IMG/VR virus record: IMGVR_UViG_3300030450_000541
Location: 1 to 25,538 of that record
Direction: 5' to 3' (one strand)
DNA length: 25,538 nucleotides
Origin: a virus
Both the position numbers and the translations under genes were made by a program. The notes beneath the pieces are model-generated. The model was not told the DNA's origin. It did not search any database and saw nothing but the letters and a program-made list of their open reading frames with translations. Positions 3,020 to 16,118 of the stretch are shown one piece after another; position 1 is the stretch's first letter, and each line of letters opens with the position of its first letter.

Positions 3020-3131
3020 TTTTAGTATTAGCTTCATTTAAAACCGCTTGCGCTTGTATCTTGCGTTGTTTTTCTTTGTTTAATTCTTCTTGCCACTCAA
3101 GAGAAAGTTTTTGTATGTTTTCAATATTCAT
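2895..3131 (-). CDS. Small coiled-coil protein of unknown function
   Basis: A 78-residue protein. I prefer the ATG at 3131 (MNIENIQKLS), which overlaps the upstream stop as ATGA, over the one four codons upstream, because most genes here use this coupling. The sequence is almost entirely charged helix with heptad-like spacing (LEWQEELNKEKQRKIQAQAV), followed by MIEGGLQFAEMLVKNFG and a basic disordered tail (KASRPQRKPKASQ). No Cys and no membrane segment. Proteins of this look, following fibre genes, are common unknowns in marine phages; it could be a fibre chaperone or a small accessory protein, but the sequence does not say which. Confidence 0.65.
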   Translation of the reverse strand: MNIENIQKLSLEWQEELNKEKQRKIQAQAVLNEANTKINMIEGGLQFAEMLVKNFGQTGNVDIGTKASRPQRKPKASQ

Positions 3132-3454
3132 AGCACAATCCAAGTATCGCCTGAATCTATAGTAACGGTAATGGAGTTGTTGATTGTTATAGGGCCTGCA
3201 CTCATAGCGTTACAGGCTGCACCGAAAGTATCCCCGATTGTGTAGTTGGCCGTGACTGTTTGGCCGTTTTCTTGAAAAATTTTATCGTTACTTCCACCAG
3301 TTGCACCGCCGCCACCGCCACCAATTTCTTTAACCGTTCCTGAATCATTTATATAAAGTTTTTGCGCCGACGTATCTACCGCAACTTCCCCGCTAGCAAT
3401 GTCACTATTTGACGGGGTGCTAGTTCCTCTTTTTAATTTGATTGTGTTAGCCAT
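3128..3454 (-). CDS. Tail fibre/adhesin-like small structural protein
   Basis: A 108-residue protein. The N-terminus (MANTIKLKRGTSTPSNSDIASGEVAVDTSAQKLYIN, broken here only for naming) has the pattern of the phage tropism-determinant N-terminal domain: a K-x-K-R start, 'SGE(V/L)A', then a 'KLY' strand. A Gly linker (GGGGGGATGG) follows. The C-terminal domain has the ENGQTVTANYTI ... INNSITVTI ... WIVL pattern also present at the end of the fibre at 8398-9024. Start supported by an excellent AGGAGG eight bases before the ATG. The two-domain layout suggests a small trimeric fibre tip or accessory virion protein. Domain naming rests on pattern memory, not on a search. Confidence 0.75.
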   Translation of the reverse strand: MANTIKLKRGTSTPSNSDIASGEVAVDTSAQKLYINDSGTVKEIGGGGGGATGGSNDKIFQENGQTVTANYTIGDTFGAACNAMSAGPITINNSITVTIDSGDTWIVL

Positions 3455-7131: not shown

Positions 7132-7763
7132 GCTGCTACCTCCATAACTGTGATAAAGCTCATGCCTCTTTCATGGCTAGCTGCATCAGAATCATCTGTA
7201 CTTCTATTGACATACCAAGTTTTACTATTTACTGAACAATTCATTTGTACCGTGTATGTAATTTCAGAAGTTGTTGATGGACTATCTAGATAATTACTAA
7301 TGAAAAAATTTGAAGGAGTAGAGGAATTGTCATCCCCAAGATAACTAACAGGGACAACTCCCATACAAGTCGTACGGCTACCGGATGCAGCTCCTTGAAT
7401 AGCGGTGGTAGCACCGCCTACAACTCTTTTAAGTCTATATCTAAAAGCATGATCACCCTCATTTCCTTCTCCCATTCCCATAAACGAGATTAATATTTTA
7501 TTGCTAGCACTTGAAGGTGTAATGGCTACAGTCATATTTGTTATATCATAATAAGATCCGTTTGAAGAAAGAGAAATACTATCAGTAGATGTTGTATCTG
7601 AATTTTGCTTTACTTGAAGAATACAACCTGCTGTTGTATTAGTAAGAATCGTTCCATTTGCATTGCTCGGAACGTATAAAGTTCTGTCAGAAGCAGGGTT
7701 GGATTCTGGAGCCGCAATACTTACGGCATTTCCTGAAGCGTGTTTTAGCTTGATTGAACTCAT
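7128..7763 (-). CDS. Fibre/adhesin-like protein, paralogue of the 7760-8362 gene
   Basis: A 211-residue protein. The N-terminal MSSIKLKHASGNAVSIAAPE-type stem contains DRTLYVPSNANGTILTN. The C-terminal domain begins ILQVKQ and continues with YDITNMTVAITPSSASNKIL and FRYRLKRVVGGATT. The 'QVK...ITPSSASNKILI' pattern is widespread in marine phage virion proteins attached to tails. The upstream gene has the same pattern (IIQVK, ETITLASTSNKLLIS, GMRILVTPSGG), so the two are divergent paralogues. ATGA overlaps link it to both neighbours. Probable receptor-binding or accessory fibre component. Confidence 0.78.
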   Translation of the reverse strand: MSSIKLKHASGNAVSIAAPESNPASDRTLYVPSNANGTILTNTTAGCILQVKQNSDTTSTDSISLSSNGSYYDITNMTVAITPSSASNKILISFMGMGEGNEGDHAFRYRLKRVVGGATTAIQGAASGSRTTCMGVVPVSYLGDDNSSTPSNFFISNYLDSPSTTSEITYTVQMNCSVNSKTWYVNRSTDDSDAASHERGMSFITVMEVAA

Positions 7764-8362
7764 CCTGCTACCTCCTGTAAAAGTAATGTATTGACGCTCG
7801 TATCAGTAAATACTTGAACATTATCACTATTACCACCATACCTTATATACTCAGCTTTAACAGTAAGCTCTGCTGTACTTGAGGGAGAATATAATGCCTG
7901 ATGATGATCAGCAGTTGCTTTCCAGTCATCATCTGTTCTATAAGCCCAATAATCGTTTTGTATTGCTGTTCCTGATGAACCGCCTGAGGGTGTAACAAGA
8001 ATCCTCATGCCATATCTTTGCTCATTTCCACCGTCTAAGTAAGGACTTATACTAGCCGAAATTAATAATTTATTGCTGGTACTGGCTAACGTAATTGTTT
8101 CCGATAAACCAATATCAGACCAAGACGTATTATTGTCATTTAAAGCACTTCCTAATACAGCCATTTTTACTTGAATAATATGCCCCGTAGAACTTAAACC
8201 GTTGTTGTCAATAACTGCCCGTTGTGTTCCACCTGTTGAGAATTTAATTGCGTCCGCAGTATAAAAAATTCCACTATTTGAATCTGAACCGCGAATTGAC
8301 GGACTACCAGCGCTTGCATCAACGCTTGCAATTCCTGATGAACCTGAAATTGTGACTGCCAT
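7760..8362 (-). CDS. Fibre/adhesin-like protein, paralogue of the 7128-7763 gene
   Basis: A 200-residue protein. The N-terminal stem (MAVTISGSSGIASVDASAG, then FYTADAIKFSTGGTQRAVID) is the repetitive beta-stem used in marine phage fibres, where the genome or gene-product tag changes but 'GG.QR..I....G' recurs. The C-terminal domain follows GHIIQVKMAV and shares the STSNKLLISA core with its neighbour. No Shine-Dalgarno sequence is obvious before the ATG. A 35-base gap upstream holds a motif pair shared with the 5729-5770 gap. Likely part of the host-recognition fibre array. Confidence 0.78.
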   Translation of the reverse strand: MAVTISGSSGIASVDASAGSPSIRGSDSNSGIFYTADAIKFSTGGTQRAVIDNNGLSSTGHIIQVKMAVLGSALNDNNTSWSDIGLSETITLASTSNKLLISASISPYLDGGNEQRYGMRILVTPSGGSSGTAIQNDYWAYRTDDDWKATADHHQALYSPSSTAELTVKAEYIRYGGNSDNVQVFTDTSVNTLLLQEVAG

Positions 8363-8397: not shown

Positions 8398-9024
8398 TTA
8401 CATAATGGTCCATGCACTAGTAGCAGGGATTGTTACCGTCACCCCGCTATTAATTACGATTCCATCAGGGCCGCCAAAACTACCAACACCACGCGCAGCC
8501 GTCAAAGTGTAGCTATGCGTAATCGTTGCTTGATTCTCCCAGAAAACAGCATTGTCACCGCCATCACCACCGGTTGCACCTGTTCCACTTCCTACCTCTT
8601 CCCAAGATCCATTTTTATAAGCTTCTACTTCATGTTCTGTACTGTTATATCTTAAATCTCCATTAGTAGGACTGCCCGGTCTTTGGGCGGTTGTACCTGA
8701 TGGCAACTGGATCGAACCAGTAGAATTAAATATTACTTCCCCGGTAAATGTACAGCCGGCTAATAATGCAAGACCTAAATTTGCTGTATTTAATGCGCCG
8801 ATTTCATACCAAGTTGTATTACTAGAAGCATCCCTAATCTTTAATTTGTTATTTGTAGTATCAGCCCATAATTGATAAGCGTGAGTCGTTGCCGCCGTTG
8901 GCTGAGAGGTTCCACTACTTAAAGACGCTAAAGCTTGTAAAGCACCTTGAATATCAGTCCTGACGTTTTGCCCTGAATCATTATCAATTACAAAATCATT
9001 TTGTGAAATTTGCCCGTCCTCAAT
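8398..9024 (-). CDS. Tail fibre protein lacking a standard start codon
   Basis: From 9030 to the TAA at 8398 the frame is open and clearly coding. It begins RIEDGQISQNDFVIDNDSG, a well-known fibre N-terminus in marine phages; continues through HAYQLWADTTNNKLKIRD, LPSGTTAQRPGSPTNGDLRY and a Gly linker; and ends in an INSGVTVTIPATSAWTIM domain like that of the 3128-3454 protein. Yet no ATG, GTG or TTG occurs in frame upstream of 8706, which would cut off the first third. The coordinates use the ATT at 9024 (208 residues); a second ATT at 9009 has a good GAGGA seven bases before it. Alternatively, one excess A in the AAAA run near 9027-9030 hides a GTG start overlapping the end of the J gene (MSKLERIEDG). 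Confidence 0.75.
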   Translation of the reverse strand: MEDGQISQNDFVIDNDSGQNVRTDIQGALQALASLSSGTSQPTAATTHAYQLWADTTNNKLKIRDASSNTTWYEIGALNTANLGLALLAGCTFTGEVIFNSTGSIQLPSGTTAQRPGSPTNGDLRYNSTEHEVEAYKNGSWEEVGSGTGATGGDGGDNAVFWENQATITHSYTLTAARGVGSFGGPDGIVINSGVTVTIPATSAWTIM

Positions 9025-9035
9025 TCTTTTCTAGT

Positions 9036-12000
9036 TTAGACACTCCGCCCATACCCCACGGCCTGCCAAGTAAAGTTTCTATCGACATTACTTCCGTTTG
9101 ACGCTTTAAAGGTCACGGTGAATTGACTACCTGTAACCGTTCCCATTTCGATGTAGTCACCCGTTGCCTGATTATGCGGGATTAACGTAATACTAGGAAG
9201 ATAAGCACTTGCCCCACCTAATGAACTTGTGCCCGTCCAAAAGCTTTTATTGAAAGTTATAGTTTTAGCCGATGTACCACTTGCAACAACTCCTACGCTT
9301 TGTTCTGTTCTTTGTTCCAGCTCGGCAACATATCCAAGTTCATCAATCAGGATATTTTCCGTTGTATCTGCACTTGTTAGATCAGTTTTAAATTGAAAAC
9401 CTCGACCGGTAAAGATTCCATTTTTTAACGACGTCCAATCTCCCCAAGTAGGAGAACTTGAAGGGTTATCATTTGTTGTCCTAACACTTAAAGAAGCGTT
9501 TACATTATCAACTATGTCACCATCCCAATCAGAACGAGCATCTACATCAGGCCAAACATCAACTAAATCACTTGGTCTTATTGCTCTAGTAACAAAACGT
9601 CTTTGAAGATCTAAAGCAAAAACACCCTCTAAATCTAAAACAGATGCAAAAGTATATGATCCTGAACTATTAATATTACTACCGCTAGATGTTAATTTTA
9701 GAGCATCTAAAGATGCGTCATATTCTGTATTTGTTTTGCTACCAGAAAACGGCGTTGGGCTAATTGTATCTTCTCGTTGTGTCTTAACAACTAAAGTTTC
9801 ACCTGTTTGAGATACATTTAAAATTATTATGCTTGCTTCTGTTGTACTAAATCTACCGCCATCATCTGCAAACTTAACTAATATTTCACCGGGTAATTTT
9901 GGTATTATTGCCTCTGTAGAATTACCAGCTATAGCATTAATTAGATCAACTGAATTAGACCATGTTGCAGAGCCATTAGTTAAAGAACTTGATCTAATAT
10001 GTACTTTACCGCCATGTAATACGTCGGCTTCTGTTGATTGCGTCCATGATAAACGACCTGAGTTCAAATTAATACTTTCAAAAGATAAACCTGAAACATT
10101 GGCAGGTTTAGCAGTTTTACCAACTGCGTTTAAAGTTAACTCAGCAGGTATAGCCGATGGTCGTAATGCTGCATTATATGAAAACACCCTTATCTCATAA
10201 ACGCCGGAAGTAGAACCTAAAATTTCATAATCAGAACTAGTGATAGTTTCTTGAATATAATTACCGTTATCTTTACGCCATTGAATCCGGTATTGAGTTA
10301 CCCGATTTTGTGGGGTCCAACTAACTAATATTTTTACCTTAGCTTGATTATTTTCTACATAAATCGTTTCAACAGCACTTAAATTACTAGGAGCTGAAAC
10401 AGGATCAGCTAACGTTGATATTTTTCTTGTACTTAATGGCGCCCCGGTTTCAACATAATTAAACTTAGTTGCGTTATATGTAACCGCTGAAATTGTATAT
10501 AGTTCCTGATCTTCTGCAATACTTACAACGCGCCATTGACTTGTCAAAGTTGTATCATTTTCAAGAATCCAAACTGAATTACTATTGGGCGCACTTGAAA
10601 ACGCAGAAGAAACCGTAATTACAGCGCCACTAATACCGGAAACATCTCTTTGTTCAATCGTCCCATCGGAAAGAATTACAGAAAGTTTAGGGTTGTTTGT
10701 ATTATCTAAATCTGTTTGATCTTCATTATCAACAGTAACTGTAGTTGTAGTAGCTGATTGAATTAAGCCGCCTTTTCTTAAACCACTCCTGACAGGATCA
10801 GCAACATCTATTACATCCCCCGGCGCGATCATTACACCCGCTTCTATTGTCGTTGTAAAGCTAACTACTTCCCCTTCGTTGAAAAGCGTGTAAAGCATCC
10901 ACCGCCCTAATCTATTAGCTTCCCCCCGTGAAGTACACCCCCAAGCTTTCACATTCTTCTGAACAATTCCATACTTTGCTTGATAATTAGCATCTGATAC
11001 CTCTTCCCAGTCTATGCTTTGAGTTTCATTATCAAAGTAGCTAACGTTAATTTGTGTTGCCCTTGTTCTAATAGATGAGCCTGAGTATGTAAAACCCCCA
11101 TCTGCTGTATTAGCCAAAGTAAACAAATAAGATGAATCTTTAGGTGCATCTTGACTAATTGTTATTCCTCCATTTGACCAGTAGGGCATACAACGCATAA
11201 CCCCACAAATTTGATTAACTAATTTATATGCGTCGTGTTGTTGTTGTATTGATACATTTAATGTAAACCTCGCGTGAGTTGTTCCATTACCTGACATATC
11301 ATCTATCTGCTCATTATTATAAACTGAGACAGAATAGAAGGTATATTTATCAATTTGTGATTCTGTTAAATGAGAACCAAACCCATATCTTTCATTGATT
11401 AATAAATCATACAACGCCCACGCCGGACACGTACAAGCTACTTTAGTTGCTGAAAATGTACCGTCCCAAGATCCGCTAAAACTTAAACTTCCATCAGCTC
11501 TAACACTTGCATTACTTGGTATTTTTATTAATGTCCCGCGTAAACGAAACATCCGGGCGGGCACTTGTTTAAATTGCTCAGCATCAAATCTCAAAGCGCA
11601 ATGAGCCGTATTTAAGTAAGGTTTTTGATCATATATTATTTCTGTCCAACTCATCCAATTAAACTTATCAAATAACTTACTAGGATCAGAAGCGTTCGCG
11701 GTATTCCTTATAACTCTTACATTGATAGGAAACGCACCGTTTAGATCTATTTTGTAATCTCTAAAATAAGCATCTGTGCTTCTACCGCTAACAGTATCAG
11801 TAATAATTGTTGAATAGCTTCCGCCGTTATATTGAATTTGAATACTTAACGAAACAGAAGTACCATCAATCTCGCCATCATCTTTATATTTTTGCAGTCT
11901 AGGAAATGCAACTGTAACCCTTACAGCATTAATATTAGTATTAGTAATTGTCCTTGTTATTGGCGCCCCGTTCGTAACTTCCGCCGGTAATAGATCAGTT

Positions 12001-12347
12001 TTCTCAGTTGTAATATCATTTATTCCAGCAATATATGTTTGATTAGATTTACCAAATCTAGGTTCAAAATCTACGCCCCTAAAGTTATAATCACTATCTT
12101 GAACATTAGAAATATTTGCTGAGCTGTTTAATATCTGTGTCCCGTTTAAATAAATATCTTTTAAGGCAGCTAAATTATAATTTGCTGTCCCTTGCGTATA
12201 ACCTCCATCAATAGCCGACGGGAAGCCCGCTAATTCACCTTCTGCTAATGCTTCAACGTATGTAGCAAATTGTTTACTAGCTAAAACGCTTGACGGCAAA
12301 GCCGGATCAGTAAGCCTAGTTGATTCGTTAAATTGTTCTATTGGCAT
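9036..12347 (-). CDS. J: Tail tip host-specificity protein, gpJ homologue
   Basis: At 1103 residues it is close to lambda gpJ in length and sits directly after the I homologue with a TAATG overlap. The N-terminal third has the central-tail-hub pattern (DIYLNGTQILN, YNFRGVDFEPRFG). The middle carries the signature region of tail-tip J proteins: FRLRGTLIKIPSN, then ALYDLLINERYGFGSHL and MRCMPYWSNGGITISQD, with VSFTTTIEAGVMIAPGDVI beyond. Two fibronectin type III domains follow at about 650-740 and 746-830. The C-terminal part (about 860-1103) is variable beta structure and probably the receptor-facing tip. Known role of the family: it caps the tail tip and contacts the host receptor. The low similarity expected at the C-terminus prevents receptor prediction. 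Confidence 0.93.
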   Translation of the reverse strand: MPIEQFNESTRLTDPALPSSVLASKQFATYVEALAEGELAGFPSAIDGGYTQGTANYNLAALKDIYLNGTQILNSSANISNVQDSDYNFRGVDFEPRFGKSNQTYIAGINDITTEKTDLLPAEVTNGAPITRTITNTNINAVRVTVAFPRLQKYKDDGEIDGTSVSLSIQIQYNGGSYSTIITDTVSGRSTDAYFRDYKIDLNGAFPINVRVIRNTANASDPSKLFDKFNWMSWTEIIYDQKPYLNTAHCALRFDAEQFKQVPARMFRLRGTLIKIPSNASVRADGSLSFSGSWDGTFSATKVACTCPAWALYDLLINERYGFGSHLTESQIDKYTFYSVSVYNNEQIDDMSGNGTTHARFTLNVSIQQQHDAYKLVNQICGVMRCMPYWSNGGITISQDAPKDSSYLFTLANTADGGFTYSGSSIRTRATQINVSYFDNETQSIDWEEVSDANYQAKYGIVQKNVKAWGCTSRGEANRLGRWMLYTLFNEGEVVSFTTTIEAGVMIAPGDVIDVADPVRSGLRKGGLIQSATTTTVTVDNEDQTDLDNTNNPKLSVILSDGTIEQRDVSGISGAVITVSSAFSSAPNSNSVWILENDTTLTSQWRVVSIAEDQELYTISAVTYNATKFNYVETGAPLSTRKISTLADPVSAPSNLSAVETIYVENNQAKVKILVSWTPQNRVTQYRIQWRKDNGNYIQETITSSDYEILGSTSGVYEIRVFSYNAALRPSAIPAELTLNAVGKTAKPANVSGLSFESINLNSGRLSWTQSTEADVLHGGKVHIRSSSLTNGSATWSNSVDLINAIAGNSTEAIIPKLPGEILVKFADDGGRFSTTEASIIILNVSQTGETLVVKTQREDTISPTPFSGSKTNTEYDASLDALKLTSSGSNINSSGSYTFASVLDLEGVFALDLQRRFVTRAIRPSDLVDVWPDVDARSDWDGDIVDNVNASLSVRTTNDNPSSSPTWGDWTSLKNGIFTGRGFQFKTDLTSADTTENILIDELGYVAELEQRTEQSVGVVASGTSAKTITFNKSFWTGTSSLGGASAYLPSITLIPHNQATGDYIEMGTVTGSQFTVTFKASNGSNVDRNFTWQAVGYGRSV

Positions 12348-13336: not shown

Positions 13337-13908
13337 GAAACGAAAGTACCAACACCGGGGAACTCTGCCCTAGTGATCAAACGCTTAGGTGCTTTAGGCC
13401 CATAATTAAGATCTAATGCGCTTGCTAATTCCCATTCAACATAATCTCTATTTTCTGTTACTTTACGATCTAAAAAATATATCTCTTGCGGCATTTCATT
13501 ATTTGCAGGCGTTCCAAAAGGGTTAACACCATCAGGCCAATTAGCCGCGTCAAGGTAACAAGCGCACGTTCTAATTCTTACTAATTTACTGCCACAAAGA
13601 TCAATAAAAGGCGTAACAGCGTTGGCGTCTAACATCATTGCTGTCATTGTCCCAAATAAATTACTGACCTTTAAAGATGGGCGAGGCAACGCCCCTTTGC
13701 CTGTTCGTTCATAACCGGTACTTTCTATTGGCATTCTTTGATAGCTTTGACCCTGCCAAATAATTTCATTGTTGTTATTTGGTGCGCTGCCATTATGAAA
13801 TCTTGTCGTGTCGCTGTTTCCGTGAAGCGTAGAATCAAGCGTTAAAGTGAACAGCTCAATAATTGCGCTAGGGCTAATTTTTTGTAATTCGCTTACAGGA
13901 ACAGCCAT
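13333..13908 (-). CDS. L: Minor tail protein, gpL homologue without the C-terminal Fe-S domain
   Basis: A 191-residue protein with the L-family pattern: ISPSAIIELFTLTLD at the start, NEIIWQGQSYQRMPIESTGYE, PRPSLKVSN, and QEIYFLDRKVTENRDYVEWELASALDL (shown in part). Lambda gpL is longer and carries a C-terminal domain with four Cys that bind a [4Fe-4S] cluster; here the chain ends at LITRAEFPGVGTFVS with no Cys after residue 117 (Cys at 105, 115 and 117 only). It is coupled to M (TAATG) and to K (ATGA). Role in lambda: tail-tip assembly between M and K. Confidence 0.9.
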   Translation of the reverse strand: MAVPVSELQKISPSAIIELFTLTLDSTLHGNSDTTRFHNGSAPNNNNEIIWQGQSYQRMPIESTGYERTGKGALPRPSLKVSNLFGTMTAMMLDANAVTPFIDLCGSKLVRIRTCACYLDAANWPDGVNPFGTPANNEMPQEIYFLDRKVTENRDYVEWELASALDLNYGPKAPKRLITRAEFPGVGTFVS

Positions 13909-14243
13909 TAAGGTTCGAAGACTTGTCTAAATGTTGTATTAATTGTTGTTCGACCAAACACAGCAATTTCAACCGACCAATCAGAACAAACCCATTTACC
14001 GGCGCTACCTCTAGGAGGTGTCCAATCAAATGATTCAGTGCCTTTTCTAGCTTCTAAGAAAGTAATAATGTTATCTCTTTCTGTATCATCACGATTAGCA
14101 AAAGAAAGGTTCCATGATTTCGGATCTCTTTGCAGGCCGAATTGTAAACGCTTTTCATAGCCTTCATTAAAGGAAACGGTACGAACAGCAGGGGCGCTGT
14201 TTTCTGTTGCTGTATAACTTGGGGTGTAGGAAAAGGTTGCCAT
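13908..14243 (-). CDS. M: Minor tail protein, gpM homologue
   Basis: A 111-residue protein with the full gpM-type pattern: FSYTPSYTATENSAPAVRTV, then FNEGYEKRLQFGLQRDPKSW, ANRDDTERDNIITFLEARKG, the aromatic FDWTPP motif, WVCSDWSVE and a TTFRQVFEP end. Length equals lambda gpM to within a few residues. It follows the tape measure by two bases and overlaps L by one base, as in lambda. In lambda, M is part of the tail tip between the tape measure C-terminus and L. Confidence 0.92.
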   Translation of the reverse strand: MATFSYTPSYTATENSAPAVRTVSFNEGYEKRLQFGLQRDPKSWNLSFANRDDTERDNIITFLEARKGTESFDWTPPRGSAGKWVCSDWSVEIAVFGRTTINTTFRQVFEP

Positions 14244-14245
14244 AA

Positions 14246-15814
14246 TTAAGCAGCTAAAAGGCCCCCCGGTCTTTGTTCTTGAACAATGGTATTTTTAACG
14301 GCTGCCGCGATTACTTGACCTAGCATTTTCCCTTCTTGATCGCCGCTTGTTTCTGTTCCTGAACTATCAACATTAACAACAATATTATTTGTAGTTCCTC
14401 CGCCTTGAGCCTCTACACCTAACCGCCCATCTTTACCACGCTTGAGGGGCATGATTGCTTCGGGGCCTTTCTCAGACATCAACCCCATACCGTTAGCCAT
14501 TGGGAAGAGAGTTGGCTTATTAACTACGCCGCCTTTTGCATAGGCTTTAATCTGTTGCCCGCTATCAATTACACCACCTTTTGCAAAACCTAACGATGTC
14601 ATTATCGGCTTAATGATCATTGCTCTAATTGCGATACGTGCCATATCAGCAATAATTGAACGTGCTAAATCTTTAAATGAAAGTTTCCCGGTCATTACAA
14701 AATCTACTAAGGCGTCCTCCATCCCTTTAATTCCTTTTATCACTACATCCGCCATACCTTCCTCAACTGTTTTAATTGACTTTTTAAAACCTTTTAACTT
14801 AGTCCTCATATGTTCGCCAAAAGTTTTATCTAAAGAATTACCGGTACCATCTGCATTAATACCAAGACTCTTTAACAACTCGTTTATTTCTGTTAAATCT
14901 ATTTTTGTACCTTCTAAACCCTTTAACAAATTAGCTTGAAAGTCTAAATCATCACCTAATTTACTAAAATTATCTTCAATACTATCTACCGTGTCTTTTA
15001 TAAATTTATCTAAACCTGCATAAACAGTTGCCGCCACACCAACGCCAGCGACTATCCCCGCTAAATTTTTAGGCGATGCTAACAAAGCTGTAATTGCTGC
15101 CTGTGCTTTCATATATCCCAGCTTTATCTTTTCTAACGTCAATAATGTTTTTGTTATTGCTACAAGCTTTCCAAAATTAGCAAGCAACGCCACAAAGAAT
15201 TTCCCCGCAGCTATTCCTATTAAAGTTGAAGCCCAAACTTTCGTAATAACTAAAACTATTTTTAAATTTTCAATTAGCGTTGGGATATTTAACAATAAAA
15301 TTCTAATCCCATTGCTTAAATTAATTACTAATTGCTCAGTTGCTTCTAATAAGGGCGTAAGAATTGGCGCTAATAATGTTCCTAATAATTCTTGAAAATC
15401 TCTAAATCTTTGTCCTAATGTATCAAGCGCCCCCGCTAAACCCTCCGCCGCTGCTTTTGCTGCCCCCTTATAACTACCTTCAACGATCCTAAGAATTTCG
15501 GCTTGTGCTTCCATTTCACGCCCTGAGTTTTGCAACTCAAGAATCATTTCGCGTTGTTGTTCCGTAAATATCACACCTGAACGAGATAACGCCGTTAATC
15601 CTCTTGCCGGATCACTTAAAGCTTTTGCTAATTGTAAGAAAGAACTTTTTAAATCAACTTGGTTTATCTGTGCTAAATCCGCCGCCGTTTCTGCTACCCG
15701 GCCATAAGAATCAAGACCAATATTTTTAAAACTAGTTAACAACGCAAACCCTTTTTGAAATGCCTTTTCATCAAATAAAGTTGCAAAACCTAAATCATCA
15801 GCAAGCCCTCTTAA
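14246..15814 (-). CDS. H: Tape measure protein, main part (out of frame with its N-terminus)
   Basis: 522 codons that continue the protein begun at 16118 after a one-base frame change near 15812-15816. It opens LRGLADDLGFATLFDEKAFQ and then has the conserved TMP block DLAQINQVDLKSSFLQLAKAL and LTALSRSGVIFTEQQREMI. Hydrophobic helices lie in the middle (LLAPILTPLLEATEQ, IGIAAGKFFVALLANFG, GIVAGVGVAATVYAGL). The C-terminus is the standard TMP end (FAKGGVIDSG, AKGGVVNKPTLFPMANG, MSEKGPEAIMPLKRG). Independent translation could start only at a TTG at 15742, which would lose part of the conserved block. Joined, the two parts give about 623 residues; at roughly 1.5 angstrom per residue that would set a tail near 90-95 nm (inference). 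Confidence 0.9.
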   Translation of the reverse strand, partial: LRGLADDLGFATLFDEKAFQKGFALLTSFKNIGLDSYGRVAETAADLAQINQVDLKSSFLQLAKALSDPARGLTALSRSGVIFTEQQREMILELQNSGREMEAQAEILRIVEGSYKGAAKAAAEGLAGALDTLGQRFRDFQELLGTLLAPILTPLLEATEQLVINLSNGIRILLLNIPTLIENLKIVLVITKVWASTLIGIAAGKFFVALLANFGKLVAITKTLLTLEKIKLGYMKAQAAITALLASPKNLAGIVAGVGVAATVYAGLDKFIKDTVDSIEDNFSKLGDDLDFQANLLKGLEGTKIDLTEINELLKSLGINADGTGNSLDKTFGEHMRTKLKGFKKSIKTVEEGMADVVIKGIKGMEDALVDFVMTGKLSFKDLARSIIADMARIAIRAMIIKPIMTSLGFAKGGVIDSGQQIKAYAKGGVVNKPTLFPMANGMGLMSEKGPEAIMPLKRGKDGRLGVEAQGGGTTNNIVVNVDSSGTETSGDQEGKMLGQVIAAAVKNTIVQEQRPGGLLAA

Positions 15815-16118
15815 AGCCTGCCGCCTTTGGTGCGTCAGTGCTAACCCTCGTCAAGCCATTCGCTAAGGTTGCAAAATCTGCCTCACGTTCTGCTAATACA
15901 TCAAAACTCTTTCTGATTGCCTGAAATGTTGCCGCAGCTCCAGCAATAGCAACTAATGGCCCTGCTAATTTCTTGAACGACATTGCAAGGTTTTTAGCGC
16001 TGCCTTGCACGCCTTGCATACTGTTTCCAAGACGTTTGATTTTTTCTTGCCCTTTTACATTCGCGGCAATAGTGATCCCGTACTTACTATTTCCAGATCC
16101 GGGGATTCCTCTAGGCAT
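15798..16118 (-). CDS. H: Tape measure protein, N-terminal fragment (frameshifted)
   Basis: Begins at ATG 16118, which overlaps the chaperone stop (TAATG) and has AAGGAG upstream. Contents: MPRGIPGSGNSKYGITIAAN, ITIAANVKGQEKIKRLGNSM, a helical segment with LAGPLVAIAGAAATFQAIRKS and READFATLANGLTRV. The frame ends after 106 residues at TGA 15798; from DAPKAAG onward the last six residues are out of frame, since the family sequence resumes as LRGLADDLG in the +1 frame. Dropping one T from GGCTTTAAGAG (15806-15818) restores one continuous tape measure. A sequencing or assembly error or a recent mutation is more likely than programmed frameshifting, which is not known inside this protein. Confidence 0.88.
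   Translation of the reverse strand: MPRGIPGSGNSKYGITIAANVKGQEKIKRLGNSMQGVQGSAKNLAMSFKKLAGPLVAIAGAAATFQAIRKSFDVLAEREADFATLANGLTRVSTDAPKAAGFKRAC

Follow-up and report, generated by a model that had tools for sequence, protein, structure and literature searches.

A fibre-like structural protein of 203 residues is very probably translated from AUU, a very rare start codon, in the marine phage studied here, with the help of a strong Shine-Dalgarno (SD) sequence that follows the tail gene J. We base this reading on the analysis of a 25,538-base IMG/VR virus record (the window, hereafter), in which the inferred start lies at 9007..9009 on the minus strand and aligns with the ATG, GTG or TTG of related genes. 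The putative use of AUU or AUC recurs in the same gene of diverged relatives.

The fibre frame and its neighbourhood

The stop-to-stop frame 8398..9030 (minus strand) has 210 codons and adjoins the end of a lambda-J-type tail gene. The preliminary description had stated that this frame lacks a standard start before position 8706, and a frame scan of the window gives the same result: there is no ATG, GTG or TTG before TTG 8706. It is also the longest such run, 108 codons, among the stop-to-stop frames on the minus strand of the window that have 60 codons or more. The same scan flagged four other frames, namely the tape-measure frame at 14246-15850 (36 codons) and three short ones (67, 71 and 63 codons). 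Of these three, the frame at 21-224 is wholly devoid of canonical starts. The tape-measure-like gene (14246-16118, minus strand) looks split into two frames between about 15798 and 15850, by an assembly error or genuinely.

The ATT codon at 9009-9007 is preceded, 7 nt upstream, by the SD motif GAGGA (9017..9021), exactly where these elements had been described before. The gene that would start there (8398..9009) has 203 codons and a stop, and its product would probably begin with fMet; this delimitation rests on the frame itself, on a family alignment that begins at the ATT, and on substitution patterns (pN/pS). Upstream, an in-frame TAG (9031..9033) closes the frame within the 26-nt spacer (9010..9035) that separates the ATT from the J stop codon, TAA 9038-9036. 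J itself (9036..12347, minus strand) is a central tail fibre or host-specificity protein, matching PHROG 31 'central tail fiber J' (E 1.7e-188) and the Pfam families FNIII-A_GpJ and Phage-tail_3. A GTG at 9043-9041 overlaps the end of J, out of frame with the fibre gene, and its own frame ends at TGA 9022-9020. The next gene downstream (7760..8362, minus strand) has an ordinary ATG, and neither PHROG nor Pfam yielded a family for it at the limits applied.

The assignment of the protein to the tail follows from its position after J and from its sequence relation to phage tail proteins. The PHROG search matched it to PHROG 21249 'tail protein' (E 5.3e-6), the other 19 of the 20 families being of unknown function, and no Pfam family was found at E 0.1. 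It also matches, each time partially, features annotated as 'tail fiber protein' in Methylophilales phages and in Roseobacter phage CRP-831. The AlphaFold model (mean pLDDT 53.5, pTM 0.24) was too poor for a fold search. A small protein encoded elsewhere in the window (3128-3454, minus strand) weakly resembles the C-terminal half of the fibre-like protein (30% identity, E 4e-10), and has a match to Pfam Mtd_N that falls below the curated cut-off.

The window J is about 44% identical to the J proteins of the Prochlorococcus siphophages MED4-117 and MED4-184, and the terminase resembles that of Synechococcus phage S-CBS1 (43%). The two Prochlorococcus phages are identical over the compared stretch and thus count once. 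Their gene after J resembles the window fibre gene in position and has a homologous N-terminus, although the match spans query residues 7-77 only, and, unlike the window gene, it has an ordinary ATG.

Start codons in the relatives

We compared the window with relatives drawn from viral contigs, collected by protein and alignment searches, from five genome contigs and from loci found by sequence patterns. Since each of the three relative searches retained its best 80 hits, out of 545, 537 and 288 confirmed relatives respectively, the counts below describe the nearer relatives rather than the whole family. The survey included 318 loci in addition to the window; a usable N-terminal match was present in 313, corresponding to 220 distinct stretches. 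Leaving out the 20 that lack the anchor motif [HN]D gave 200 anchored sequences, window included. Among the matches listed, 145 of these start with ATG, 36 with GTG and 5 with TTG, while 14 have no canonical start. All 14, again among the matches listed, have ATT (12) or ATC (2) as the third codon before [HN]D, which is the very codon used as the start in 156 of the 186 canonical sequences. Five pattern matches (L157, L159, L421, L424 and L425) were discarded as chance hits to short or unrelated frames.

An alignment of 17 proteins places the isoleucine of the ATT opposite the initial methionine of relatives, and the annotated ATG of the MED4-117 and MED4-184 gene falls at the position homologous to the ATT. 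Hence, near the homologous N-terminus there is no canonical start, and AUU or AUC stands where the relatives have ATG. The preliminary description had put forward two explanations, an ATT start at 9009 or an excess A that hides a GTG, and had proposed a comparison with homologues; this comparison favours the first and speaks against the second. In one ATT relative, L252 (the same gene as in L004-L006), none of the 200 codons of the gene is ATG, GTG or TTG. All 15 ATT or ATC genes listed have a stop in the same frame at 6, 8 or 9 codons before their start; this number includes L163, a cut copy of L256 (both from contig 3300030333_002136). The fibre frame of L163 ends at 143 codons, where the fetched stretch ends (the gene starts at 11306, and the locus has 11734 bases), and L256 gives 197 codons.

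The unusual start codons appear to be confined to this gene. Among the 121 frames in 24 loci that are 100 codons or longer, 16 have no canonical start in their first 26 codons: 11 are the fibre gene, and five run on the opposite strand, four facing the region upstream of the fibre gene (J) and one, in L095, lying downstream. On the fibre strand, only the fibre gene thus lacks an early canonical start in the 24 loci. The scan is blind to frames truncated at a locus end (L163, L258), and the ATC genes are not flagged, having an early internal GTG. As a control, we used the tail gene at 13908-14243; all 64 distinct relatives have ATG as its start (80 loci, 16 of which were dropped as duplicates), with some bias towards ATG as one of the six search patterns demanded an initial Met. 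In 3300044448_002013 (L361) and 3300044270_001203 (L364), which are identical over the compared stretch and counted once, the fibre gene starts with ATT and the control gene with ATG. A second control, the portal gene, has ATG in L403-L405, as read by eye in three near-complete matches only. Loose start use across the genome was seen neither in the 24-locus frame scan nor in the tail-gene control. Judging from these comparisons, the putative AUU or AUC start is gene-specific and kept across diverged phages.

Ribosome binding and alternative accounts of the missing start

The SD sequence of the fibre gene is strong and suitably spaced. Counting GGAGG, GAGGA or AGGAG as a strong SD 5-mer, after removal of duplicates, we found one in 13 of 13 distinct ATT or ATC starts against 32 of 166 canonical ones among the matches listed (Fisher p 3.7e-9, a value that overstates independence because the sequences are related). 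By start codon, again among the matches listed, the figures are 19/132 for ATG, 11/29 for GTG and 2/5 for TTG. The nearest ATG relatives also have a strong SD, so part of the excess reflects shared descent and not compensation. Within the window, the predicted duplex energy of the fibre SD (-8.9 kcal/mol) ranks 7th of the 28 starts scored and is not the strongest; this ranking covers only part of the window's genes, leaves out start 2790, and uses a generic anti-SD that may not be the host's. We found no special or occluding RNA fold at the window start (z +0.89), and among the five loci folded L004 alone leaned towards structure (z -1.59). In some relatives (L256, L250, L162, L251 and L258) a tiny frame, ATG AAT TGG AGG TAG or similar, overlaps the SD and ends just before the ATT. 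It is missing in the window group, in L252 and in L244, and is probably incidental.

The lack of a canonical start could in principle be an artefact. The second of the earlier explanations held that one excess base in an AAAA run masks a GTG overlapping the end of J, whether by sequencing or assembly error or by a programmed +1 frameshift, and a slip of one base would indeed take the short frame opened by GTG 9043-9041 into that of the fibre. Yet the stretch from the J stop to the ATT is identical in four other IMG/VR contigs. The proteins of three of them (L001-L003) are 95-97% identical to that of the window, and the fourth (L420) was found by pattern search. L420 differs from L001, L002, L003 and the window by 16, 27, 15 and 23 bases per 328 aligned; although it comes from the same metagenome as L001, the 16 differences make them separate sequences. 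With four distinct contigs sharing the stretch, an error at the AAAA run is very unlikely.

The distant ATT and ATC relatives also lack the arrangement that such a slip would require, as their frame is closed by a stop 6 or 9 codons ahead of the ATT or ATC, with no canonical start in between. Moreover, among the matches listed, none of the 200 anchored sequences has an N-terminus like the proposed one. Only 2 of these 200 (L152 and L280) have ATG, GTG or TTG in frame at a distance of over 5 codons upstream of the anchor; L152 carries a signal-peptide-like extension on a bacterial contig, and neither resembles the extension in question. The hidden GTG is therefore contradicted both by the four contigs and by the N-termini of the relatives, and we regard it as very improbable, although a programmed slip limited to the window's own group keeps a small probability. 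The sequences thus indicate that the missing canonical start is neither chance nor, very likely, a sequencing error.

A start at TTG 8706, with the upstream half as a decayed remnant, is more improbable still. It has in its favour that TTG 8706 is the first canonical start, the one that gene callers limited to ATG, GTG and TTG would choose, and the preliminary description had considered that the mature protein might begin there. Across 11 pairs of ATT or ATC relatives, which share sequences and are not independent, pN/pS is 0.05-0.33 in codons 2-101 and 0.02-0.26 in the C-terminal half. For the four pairs that involve the window, the N-terminal half gives 0.08-0.31, and 0.08-0.11 against its three closest relatives. 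The region upstream of TTG 8706, on these ratios, evolves as coding sequence, with purifying selection on the N-terminal half. The first downstream canonical codon also shifts, from codon 102 in the window to 83 in L073 and 82 in L074 and L075, and is absent in L252, so that a protein beginning at 8706 is unlikely. Finally, the mere 26 nt between the two genes might suggest that the fibre is made by extending J, through readthrough or a frameshift. This can be practically dismissed, since the fibre frame differs from that of J, TAG 9033-9031 lies in frame between them, and the 15 listed ATT or ATC genes are all closed by a stop in their own frame 6, 8 or 9 codons ahead of the start.

Origin and possible role of the probable AUU start

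The start codon and the spacer go together. The J stop and the start are exactly 26 nt apart in all 12 distinct ATT sequences (L162 included) and 39 nt apart in the two ATC loci. Among 12 chosen ATG loci, all nine with a related spacer have 25 nt, and L096, L097 and L021 have 27, 27 and 45. This pairing suggests that spacer and start are inherited together. When the ATT/ATC label is placed on a protein tree of the gene body, built from the 35 genes, out of 201 distinct ones, that encode 150-260 residues and contain the motif FWEN, it changes seven times, three of these changes being forced by starred branches. We do not count them as seven origins, because recombination at the fibre locus may scatter the labels, spacer and start being linked. 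There were perhaps two origins instead, ATT with the 26-nt spacer and ATC with the 39-nt spacer.

In the mechanism that we propose, GAGGA, 7 nt upstream of the codon and 26 nt past the J stop, would place the ribosome on the AUU, with which the initiator fMet-tRNA would pair despite the mismatch at the third position. The strong SD, possibly together with ribosomes finishing J, would let the AUU work at moderate strength. By analogy with infC, described below, such a start is expected to be of low efficiency and sensitive to IF3.

AUU starts are already known in bacteria. The gene infC, which encodes IF3, starts with ATT in Escherichia coli and ATC in Streptomyces and is under IF3 autocontrol, according to the available part of PMC5472188; it shares the type of start with the fibre gene, but it is cellular, and its own product is the discriminating factor. 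In Staphylococcus aureus, the starts of cvfC1 (AUU) and of ccpN and citZ (AUA) were mapped experimentally and combine a non-canonical codon with an extended SD. The available text of that source (PMC13009471) states that the cvfC1 start and SD are conserved among staphylococci and that non-canonical starts with extended SD lower the yield. The fibre gene has a similar combination, but its start is predicted from the sequence. The same excerpt cites E. coli pcnB, another cellular gene, as limited in translation by its AUU start. For Yersinia rcsD-Hpt, the portion of PMC10191623 at hand describes an AUU with a predicted ribosome-binding site, and the change of AUU to AUG raised function; unlike that of the fibre gene, this start is internal and belongs to a cellular gene with a frameshift. 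In E. coli, an excess of IF3 reduced re-initiation, and did so less with an SD present (PMC2268962, in excerpt). In phages, the genome announcement of f18SE reports, in its available part, ten predicted genes with an AUU start (PMC4599075). We found no phage fibre gene for which a conserved AUU start is described in the open-access literature searched, outside which lie most subscription journals, and the accessible sections of PMC10974468, PMC9915841, PMC9083414, PMC6316719 and PMC9845219 (the last on chloroplasts) contain no relevant case.

What the AUU start is for is a separate matter from its use. We see an even chance that it is functionless, i.e., a slightly harmful change that was tolerated thanks to the strong SD and spread through recombination. 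This is a sub-case of the AUU-start explanation, as it concerns purpose and not the start itself. It would account for few origins, with spacer and codon moving together (26 nt with ATT in 12/12, 25 nt with ATG in 9/9 relatives with a related spacer), and for the start labels scattered over the gene-body tree in seven changes, three of them forced. Against it, ATT is retained at N-terminal pS values up to about 0.6, although a single base change would turn it into ATG. A more tentative and rather unlikely reading is that AUU and AUC act as a translational throttle, kept to set the dose of fibre relative to J and to make fibre synthesis respond to IF3 and the translation state of the host. Such a throttle would have arisen at least twice in marine phages (ATT with 26 nt, ATC with 39 nt), the strong SD being kept so that the weak codon works.

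Gene callers restricted to ATG, GTG and TTG would halve this protein or miss it, the latter in cases like L252, where no canonical start exists. The occurrence of ATT, ATC, ATG, GTG and TTG at the same homologous position, together with varying SD strength, offers a natural test bed for the trade-off between start codon and SD, and the same set of genes is suited to asking whether phages set the dose of their fibres by weak starts.
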